Of a stretch of DNA of 34,310 nucleotides, positions 30,389 to 33,288 are shown in pieces (positions within the stretch are counted from its first letter, which is position 1; each line of letters opens with the position of its first letter). Source of the stretch: Asaia bogorensis (GTDB lineage Bacteria; Pseudomonadota; Alphaproteobacteria; Acetobacterales; Acetobacteraceae); assembly GCA_945873675.1 (NCBI GenBank), contig CAMCEP010000003.1, positions 1 to 34,310 of the forward strand. The letters run 5' to 3'. Below the pieces are notes generated by a model. The model was not told the DNA's origin and made no database searches. It saw only the letters and a list, made by a program, of their open reading frames with translations. The translations under genes and the position numbers were made by a program.

Positions 30389-30721
30389 GTGACCTATGTC
30401 GTCACCGAAAATTGCATCAACTGCAAATACATGGATTGTGTGGAAGTCTGTCCGGTGGACTGCTTCTATGTTGGCGAAAACATGCTGGTGATCCACCCGG
30501 ATGAATGCATTGATTGCGGCGTCTGCGAACCGGAATGCCCCGCTGAGGCGATCCTGCCCGATAGCGACGACAAGGCGACCCCCTGGGTAGAACTCAACCG
30601 GGATTACGCCCAGCAATGGCCCAATATCACCCGCAAGGGCGATGCACCGGCGGATGCCGATGATTGGAAGGACAAGCCGGGCAAGCAGGCACTGCTCAGC
30701 CCCAATCCCGGCAAGCCCTGA
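30389..30721 (+). CDS. fdxA: Ferredoxin FdxA (7Fe-type, two Fe-S clusters)
   Basis: [58 protein letters not shown] start. Confidence 0.96.
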
Positions 30722-30937
30722 GGGCGTTCCGTCAAGAAGGCCACGAATATCTGACCGGATTGGTCATGAATTCTGCCGGCATTGGCTGCTTGGCGGGTGA
30801 CCAGGGGCGTTTTTTGTGTTAAACTGGCGTTTCTTCATTCCAGCAACTGGTCTGACCTAGATGTCTGGCTGGGATGGTGTTTTGCATTCTCAACCGGATC
30901 GCGCTGATCCGGGTTCTGCGTTGGGAGTCCCGTTTTC

Positions 30938-32464
30938 ATGACACGCAAGCCAGTGTCCAAGGCGTCTGCCAAAAGCCGCGCCAAGCCAGCCCGACCCGCG
31001 GCAAAGAAGCCCGCCAGCAAAGCGAAGCCGGCCGCAAAGAAATCCTCCGCCAAGGCAAAGGCGACCACGAAGCCCAACAAGAAGGTGGCGCCAAAAACTG
31101 TGAAGAAGCCCGTGACCAAAGCGTCAGCTAAGCCAGCGGCCAAGCCAAGCGCGAAACCAGCAGCCAAGCCGACGAACAAGCCAGCAAGCAAGGCGTCAAG
31201 CAAGCCAGCCAGCAAGCCTATGGCCAAAGCCGCGCCGAAACCTGCACCCAAGCCCGCCGCGTCCGCCAAGGCGAAGTCTTTAGCCAAACCTGCGGGCAAG
31301 TCCGCACCTAAGCCGGTAGCGCAGGTAGCCGCCCAACCCGCCGCCAAGGCGAAAGCCGCTCCGATAACGGCCAATCAGGCTGCTCAGCCGCCCAGCACCA
31401 AGCCACCTGTGCGCGCCAAGGCCGAAGCGCCCGCCGCGACGCCCGTGGCGCCAGTAACCGAGGCACCCGCCAAAACCTCCGCGCCGCCAAAGCCCGCGAA
31501 ACCCGCGGCGGCGGAAGCTATGGCCGCGCCCCCAAAGCCCGCATCCAAGCCCAAAGCCAAAGCTCCACCTGCGGCCCAATCAGCCTCCCCCGCACCATCG
31601 GCGGAAGCAAATCCTGAAGCCGCGCCAGTTAAGGCAGAGCTTCAAGAAGCCCCAAGCCCTGCGCCGGTGCCGCCAGAAACAACGCCTCGGCTCTTAGTGC
31701 CGCAGGCGCCGGCGGTTGCCATGGTAACCCCGCCCTCCCCGGCACCAGCACCGCGCCCGGCGCCGCCGCCCAGTATCTCGCCGCTATCTCCGCCGCCACC
31801 CACCATGCGCCCGAATGTCCAGATGGGGATGCGCCCGCCTGGCGGAGGTCCGCCTCGTCCTGGAATGCCGATGTCATCTTCTTCGCCAAAACCGCCCCCT
31901 GCCCCGAAACAGGAATTCAAGGCGGGCGATTATGTCGTCTACCCAACCCATGGCGTCGGGATGGTCCAGGGCATCCGCTCCCTTGAGGCTGCTGGGTTTC
32001 CTCTCCAGGTCATTGAAGTGACCTTTGAAGAAAACCGCATGAAGCTGAGCGTGCCGGTGAACAAGGCATCATCCTCAGGCCTACGCAAGCTTTGCACCAC
32101 GGAAAGCTTTCAGCCGGCCATGGAAACCCTAAAGGGCCGCGCGCGCATCAAGCGCACCATGTGGTCCCGCCGAGCACAGGAATATGAGGCAAAGATCAAT
32201 TCGGGCGATCCGGTGCAAATCGCCGAAGTGGTCCGGGACCTGTTCCGCAATGCGGGCCAGCCCGATCAATCCTTCAGCGAACGCCAGATCTACGAATTGG
32301 CACTAGATCGCTTGGCTGCCGAAGCCGCAGCGATTGACCGTTGTGACAAGACAACAGCAATCGAAAAGCTGATGGTGGTGCTGCGTTCCGGCGCCGCGGG
32401 GTCACGCGAATCCGCATCGAAGGAAGCAGCCGCGCCTGCCGCTGAAGCGCAATTGCCTGAGTAG
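30938..32464 (+). CDS. CarD family transcriptional regulator with long Lys/Ala/Pro-rich N-terminal extension
   Basis: C-terminal part QEFKAGDYVVYPTHGVGMVQGIRSLEAAGFPLQVIEVTFEENRMKLSVPVNKASSSGLRKL... is the CarD domain, beginning near residue 325 (about 31910). The preceding ~324 aa are AK/KP/PA-rich and histone H1-like. Confidence 0.93.
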   Translation: MTRKPVSKASAKSRAKPARPAAKKPASKAKPAAKKSSAKAKATTKPNKKVAPKTVKKPVTKASAKPAAKPSAKPAAKPTNKPASKASSKPASKPMAKAAPKPAPKPAASAKAKSLAKPAGKSAPKPVAQVAAQPAAKAKAAPITANQAAQPPSTKPPVRAKAEAPAATPVAPVTEAPAKTSAPPKPAKPAAAEAMAAPPKPASKPKAKAPPAAQSASPAPSAEANPEAAPVKAELQEAPSPAPVPPETTPRLLVPQAPAVAMVTPPSPAPAPRPAPPPSISPLSPPPPTMRPNVQMGMRPPGGGPPRPGMPMSSSSPKPPPAPKQEFKAGDYVVYPTHGVGMVQGIRSLEAAGFPLQVIEVTFEENRMKLSVPVNKASSSGLRKLCTTESFQPAMETLKGRARIKRTMWSRRAQEYEAKINSGDPVQIAEVVRDLFRNAGQPDQSFSERQIYELALDRLAAEAAAIDRCDKTTAIEKLMVVLRSGAAGSRESASKEAAAPAAEAQLPE

Positions 32465-33004: not shown

Positions 33005-33175
33005 TTAGCCGCGCGCCCGAGGTGCCGGAGCGGGGGCAGGTGCCGGAGCCGGAGCCGGGGCCGGAGCAGGCTCCTGAGCGCAGGCGGCGAGCAGCGCGGC
33101 CGGTGCCAGGATCGCCAAGGCCGCAGCCTTGCGGATCAGGGCTTTGCGGGTCATTTCTTTGGTTTCAGCGGTCAT
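33005..33175 (-). CDS. Small Pro-Ala-repeat lipoprotein
   Basis: MTAETKEMTRKALIRKAAALAILAPAALLAACAQEPAPAPAPAPAPAPAPAPRARG: signal peptide with lipobox LAAC and a (PA)n mature chain. ORF opens at 33226; ATG 33175 is preferred. Confidence 0.7.
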   Translation of the reverse strand: MTAETKEMTRKALIRKAAALAILAPAALLAACAQEPAPAPAPAPAPAPAPAPRARG

Positions 33176-33288
33176 TTTATACATCCAGATGGCTAGAGTC
33201 ATGGAAACAGTGTAGATAAAAGGCAATTATGCTGGAATTGTCAAACCCTTTTATTGCGCAAAAAAGCGATTTGTCAGGAGTTGATTGC

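Follow-up and report, generated by a model that had tools for sequence, protein, structure and literature searches.

CdnL (CarD) is a general regulator of transcription initiation in the Alphaproteobacteria, described as small and as being recruited mainly through RNA polymerase. What, then, is to be made of a carD gene whose product measures 508 aa and carries its CarD part behind a lysine-rich extension of more than 300 residues? The gene lies in the stretch of 34,310 nt analysed here (positions 1–34310 of contig C3 of a draft genome; "the window"). An earlier note, made from the letters alone, had described it as a CarD regulator with a histone H1/AlgP-like N-terminal extension, and had named a late start codon and an assembly artefact as the two ways in which this description could fail. 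We asked which CarD protein this is, if the extension is a genuine part of it, how widespread such extensions are, and what they may do.

The core is an ordinary CdnL

The open reading frame (30938–32464, plus strand, ATG start) contains the Pfam domains CarD_TRCF_RID (PF02559) at residues 327–385 and CarD_C (PF21095) at residues 395–477 (1.8e-12 and 5.3e-21, respectively), whereas Pfam finds no domain in residues 1–324. In the AlphaFold model (29 sequences), all residues before 332 are devoid of secondary structure, and the folded part behind them comprises five strands and five helices. Its closest matches among solved structures are chains of CarD and CdnL, with 4kbm, 4l5g and 2lwj among the best. 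The layout, a complete CdnL-type CarD preceded by 324 aa of disordered Lys/Ala/Pro sequence, confirms the long N-terminal extension proposed before. Both the domain order (PF02559, then PF21095) and the fold (a five-stranded Tudor-like domain plus a helical domain with a conserved Trp) are those of the CdnL branch. This Trp, W409, is invariant in the CarD alignment and aligns with the WSRR of M. tuberculosis CarD; the residues of CdnL that face RNA polymerase and the promoter are intact, W409 included. The features of the locus are compiled in Table 1.

Table 1. Sequence features of the cdnL locus, in window coordinates
Feature	Position	Strand	Remarks
FdxA-type ferredoxin gene, upstream neighbour of cdnL	30389..30721	+	Fer4 and DUF3470; in Rhodospirillales, marks the CdnL gene by synteny
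Leader inverted repeat with 7-bp arms (CCGGATC-gcgct-GATCCGG), shortly before the ribosome-binding site	30894..30912	+	possible RNA hairpin
GGGAG resembling a Shine-Dalgarno sequence, 10 nt ahead of the ATG	30923..30927	+	TTGGGAGTCC invariant in 16 close-clade sequences
Basic Lys/Ala/Pro segment (tail part 1, residues 1-140)	30938..31357	+	lysine mostly every 4 residues; dN/dS 0.20
Ala/Pro-rich segment of low charge (tail part 2, residues 141-240), the most variable of the three	31358..31657	+	dN/dS 0.32; indels numerous and in frame
Pro-rich linker (tail part 3, residues 241-324)	31658..31909	+	core ...PAPAPRPAPPPSISPLSPPPPTMRPN...GMRPPGGGPPRPGM...; dN/dS 0.118
RNA-polymerase-interacting Tudor-like domain (CarD_TRCF_RID)	31916..32092	+	PF02559; modelled by AlphaFold as five strands (residues 332-385)
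CarD C-terminal helical domain with conserved Trp W409 (32162-32164)	32120..32368	+	PF21095
C-terminal extension, 21 aa after ...VVLRSGAA	32399..32461	+	places inside the chain the AA with which alphaproteobacterial CdnL typically ends

Among CdnL loci with sufficient flanking sequence, nearly all have an fdxA gene ahead of carD, inside the family as well as in other Rhodospirillales, and the present locus shares this context. Since fdxA is found upstream nearly everywhere, we regard the gene as an ordinary alphaproteobacterial CdnL gene with an added tail and not as a new paralogue: the 508-aa protein is a vertically inherited orthologue of the ordinary alphaproteobacterial CdnL. The CarD domain match is the only one in the draft genome (2.99 Mb, 398 contigs, 77% complete), and the named relatives found with it belong mainly to Roseomonas and Neoroseomonas (Acetobacteraceae). 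The designation as a CarD regulator therefore holds as far as the complete CarD domains are concerned, but the protein is a CdnL orthologue and not a Myxococcus-type CarD; the latter identity is ruled out by the lack of RGRP AT-hooks in the protein and by the N-terminal position of its basic domain.

In its domains, fold, conserved RNA polymerase- and promoter-facing residues and its orthologous gene context within the Rhodospirillales (fdxA upstream), the protein resembles Caulobacter crescentus CdnL (PMC5324124). Unlike alphaproteobacterial CdnL as described, a standalone protein that mostly ends in AA or VA, it has the 324-aa basic disordered N-terminal tail and a C-terminal extension. An extension of about 20–28 aa past the usual AA/VA position is common to the close relatives; in Caulobacter, the C-terminal AA/VA end of CdnL is needed for proteolysis (PMC5324124).

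The tail is coding and translated

We compared the window's gene within a close clade of 16 genomes (the window's included), the relatives being 91–96% identical in CarD. The protein start MTRKPVSK is invariant in 16/16 genomes, tails measure 295–383 aa, every indel is in frame, and the sense frame is the sole frame of six that is open in all 16 sequences. Pooled dN/dS amounts to 0.22 for the tail overall and to 0.029 for CarD. The tail is thus coding, under purifying selection, predicted to be disordered, and attached to an intact CdnL.

A start just upstream of 31910 is contradicted by the invariance of MTRKPVSK and of the GGGAG preceding it (16/16) and by the selection acting on the tail, and repeat length as an assembly artefact by the equivalent tails in independent assemblies; tandem repeats in the DNA of the tail region are weak. 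With start conservation, tail constraint, a missing conserved internal ribosome-binding site (see below) and independent assemblies taken together, both doubts fail. A chance reading frame in GC-rich DNA is likewise ruled out, by control frames, lysine periodicity and frame openness (see below for the first two).

In the leader, the inverted repeat has 98.2% of its cells paired across the 16 sequences, and one pair is altered on both sides (GC/AU, in six sequences), an exchange that possibly goes back to a single inherited event. At one locus (L004) a similar element occurs twice in tandem. Searches near the cdnL gene for an Rfam family, a tRNA or a sigma-70 consensus gave no match.

A period-4 lysine comb and a constrained proline linker

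The composition of the tail changes along its length, from basic to Pro/Ala-rich, much as the earlier note had outlined. In residues 1–140, Ala makes up 30%, Lys 26% and Pro 16%, while Asp and Glu are entirely absent (net charge about +40); in residues 1–125, Lys reaches 28%, again with zero acidic residues, and occupies mostly every fourth position. There are 25 lysine pairs at lag 4, whereas 20,000 shuffles gave 9.3 on average and never more than 19; lags 8 and 12 show echoes of this spacing, and the period of four is kept in every close relative. Tetrapeptide lysine period and predicted lack of structure are those of the KPAA tails of AlgP and PhaF, so that the H1/AlgP-like character assigned to the tail is borne out. 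The linker (residues 241–324), with 39% Pro, is nearly invariant in the close clade, including an almost unchanging PPPSISPLSPPPPTMRPN core, and has the lowest dN/dS of the three tail parts (Table 1). Its PPPT[MH]RP motif can be recognised in other Roseomonas loci, though only as traces outside the close clade. A search of the draft genome with the tail as protein query returned no match besides itself.

Distribution of the tails

The survey of CarD length and architecture that had been suggested for the Acetobacteraceae shows long tails to be the rule on the Roseomonas side and absent in the sampled Acetobacter-like genera. In Roseomonas and related genera, tails comprise roughly 90–390 residues with a basic distal half and often begin with MKAPARAK or MKASARAK. 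Elsewhere in the family they are shorter, neutral or acidic (neutral or acidic, for example, at loci L048, L057, L063 and L069). Family-wide, tail length spans about 50–390 aa, these values being approximate, as automatic start choice failed where MAKA directly precedes CarD (e.g. L046 and L052). In 20 Acetobacter-like or divergent genomes (L132–L151), CarD itself has diverged (42–48% identity), N-termini are mostly short and no fdxA match adjoins the gene; this CarD may be a replaced or paralogous copy. Several members of the window's genus (L184–L188) encode a second CarD, about 40–45% identical, that has no basic tail; the window's draft genome (77% complete) yielded no such second copy.

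For the class as a whole, we sampled 192 alphaproteobacterial genomes, for which about 150 matches were listed. Lys-rich tails were present in 20/20 fetched loci with open frames of more than 300 aa and in 8/20 examined loci with open frames of 230–290 aa, i.e. in at least 28 of about 150 genomes among the matches listed, distributed across the Alphaproteobacteria. This is a lower bound, since the count covers frames from 230 aa upward. The arrangement is thus recurrent and found throughout the family, not a peculiarity of one genome. Many alphaproteobacteria, on the other hand, have no long CdnL tail. As a control, we counted frames of at least 130 aa with at least 9 Lys in 40 residues at the same loci, which yielded 74/186 CarD frames (a set partly chosen for long frames) versus 4/2788 other open frames. 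Parsimony on a tree of 171 CarD sequences required 25 changes of tail state, a number that is indicative only, the protein being short; it suggests that tails were gained and lost repeatedly on CdnL.

Known proteins with comparable tails

CdnL has been described as a standalone protein of 160–200 aa, with a basic DNA-binding domain placed only in myxobacterial CarD (PMC4374960). At 508 aa, the present protein falls outside this range, which describes a size and is no domain criterion. The closest precedent is Myxococcus xanthus CarD, which likewise joins an RNA polymerase-binding CarD domain to a long disordered basic domain; the latter binds DNA and boosts activity, and human histone H1 or its C-terminal region can reportedly take its place (PMC8156234, PMC4374960). 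There, however, the basic domain is C-terminal, is accompanied by an acidic stretch, contains RGRP AT-hooks and works with CarG, whereas here it is N-terminal, of KPA type, free of AT-hooks and attached to a CdnL-type core.

AlgP of Pseudomonas aeruginosa and PhaF share the disordered lysine-rich tail with period-4 KPAA-like repeats, which serves there as a DNA, polyphosphate or granule tether; for AlgP, tethering to either DNA or polyphosphate is documented (PMC9239181). AlgP differs in having an N-terminal helical domain (absent from the 508-aa protein according to Pfam and the AlphaFold model), a C-terminal repeat and no CarD domain, and the repeats of the present tail are degenerate. The C-terminal domain of eukaryotic histone H1 is also K/A/P-rich and disordered, as is the distal part of our tail, which equally lacks acidic residues. 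The globular winged-helix domain of H1 is missing here, Pfam having returned CarD domains only, and the likeness is one of composition that does not imply homology.

A possible DNA tether

In known CdnL proteins, the Tudor-like domain binds RNA polymerase beta and the helical domain stabilises the open complex (PMC8156234, PMC5324124). From the conserved residues we infer the same activities for the 508-aa protein: its folded part, with W409 in the helical domain, would bind the beta lobe and stabilise open promoter complexes. The tail, judged by its counterparts in Myxococcus CarD and AlgP, probably clings to DNA or another negatively charged polymer. Our best explanation, to which we assign a probability of roughly 55%, is that it acts as a DNA tether raising the occupancy of CdnL while the folded part binds RNA polymerase. 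The distal 140 residues, with their lysine comb of about +40, would bind DNA by charge, whatever its sequence, and may also hold on to it outside the promoter; the Pro-rich linker would give the comb its reach and keep it away from the polymerase-bound domain. In this way the tail would raise the occupancy of CdnL on the nucleoid and at promoters. Caulobacter CdnL binds DNA weakly and non-specifically (PMC5324124), and the constraint on the tail, its conserved lysine period and the recurrence of Lys-rich tails on CdnL also favour this reading. Both DNA binding by the tail and its consequence for transcription are argued here mainly by analogy. The wide variation of tail length and charge in the family counts against a DNA tether, as do the missing long tails of the sampled Acetobacter-like genera and of many alphaproteobacteria. 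That the protein couples chromatin compaction to initiation, as the earlier note went on to propose, goes beyond this evidence and is a hypothesis.

The main rival, in our view unlikely, is that the comb tethers CdnL not to DNA but to another polyanion, be it polyphosphate, RNA or ribosomes, which would withdraw it from promoters or concentrate it in condensates when polyphosphate accumulates in starvation. KPAA-tailed AlgP indeed resides on polyphosphate granules and returns to the nucleoid when polyphosphate is absent (PMC9239181), and in the same genus a similar conserved KPA tail is carried by urease gamma, a cytosolic enzyme with no known DNA role, so that such a tail is by itself no proof of a chromatin role. 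We found no polyphosphate-specific feature in the protein, however, and the tail is fused to a promoter factor, which has DNA as the polyanion closest at hand.

Rather unlikely, too, is a tail that has no specific function and arose largely by passive growth of low-complexity sequence in a GC-rich genome, with selection keeping it from doing harm. The variable tail length, both among close relatives and in the family, would fit such growth, as would tandem additions such as KVAPKVAP in L009 and the relaxed dN/dS of the middle part. Purifying selection is nevertheless clear on the N-terminal segment and on the linker, the lysine period persists in every close relative, and Lys-rich stretches are far more frequent on CdnL than in control frames. 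Nor does the genome tend to lysine tracts in general: a period-4 pattern of six lysines occurs at two loci only of the draft genome, carD and ureA.

The strong constraint on the linker, which exceeds that on the basic part, means that the key contact may lie there. The main function could then reside in a protein docking motif or an EF-P-dependent translation brake, with the basic tail being secondary; we consider this quite improbable, as beyond the close clade only traces of the motif persist and no partner is known. It is very improbable that the tail is no part of the main product, through cleavage or translation from near residue 310 (GMPM): the close clade does conserve ATGs 12–15 codons ahead of CarD, and some members have an SD-like GGAGG there, but about half of the close relatives have lost this GGAGG, other genus members (L021–L031) lack an ATG within 29 codons of CarD, L118, L123 and L128 lack any start codon within 60 codons, and the constraint on the tail acts at the codon level, by which, together with start conservation, a mis-set start codon is ruled out.

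Returning to the tether, we found no report of Lys-rich CdnL tails or of disordered CarD tails in the open-access papers that our search covered. Given this and the description of CdnL as small and standalone, we regard the tailed CdnL as a new variant; new is the long Lys-rich N-terminal tail on CdnL, while the CdnL core, the basic domain of Myxococcus CarD and KPAA tails were already known. Tentatively, and at somewhat less than even odds, long Lys-rich N-terminal tails might have been gained repeatedly on CdnL across the Alphaproteobacteria and define an unrecognised class of self-tethered CdnL proteins that would hold DNA or another polyanion themselves, as opposed to polymerase-dependent recruitment, and would form the opposite-end counterpart of the H1-replaceable domain of Myxococcus CarD. 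If many lineages have added an H1/AlgP-like tail, a single protein would physically connect global initiation with binding to the nucleoid (or to polyphosphate), and tailed and tail-less orthologues would constitute a natural comparison set for the effects of a disordered basic tail on a promoter factor. The start sites and lengths of CdnL entries in databases deserve checking.

Low-complexity ends of other proteins

The urease gamma subunit (UreA, PF00547; contig C67, 10384–10840; loci L226 and L248) has a C-terminal KPA/lysine-rich tail of about 45–75 aa that ends in KGAR[KR] and is found in all 24 genus loci read (relatives L249–L271). Three genomes of the genus contain a more distant UreA with a short open frame that leaves little room for a KPA tail. 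In the window, the neighbouring Suv3-like helicase gene (PF22527; 27125–29989) encodes a long Arg/Gln/Asp/Pro-rich low-complexity end, and the corresponding helicase frame in L080 contains a lysine-rich stretch. A small open reading frame on the minus strand (33005–33226) combines a signal-peptide-like N-terminus with PA repeats at its end (AACAQEPAPAPAPAPAPAPAPAPAPRARG) and possibly encodes a lipoprotein.
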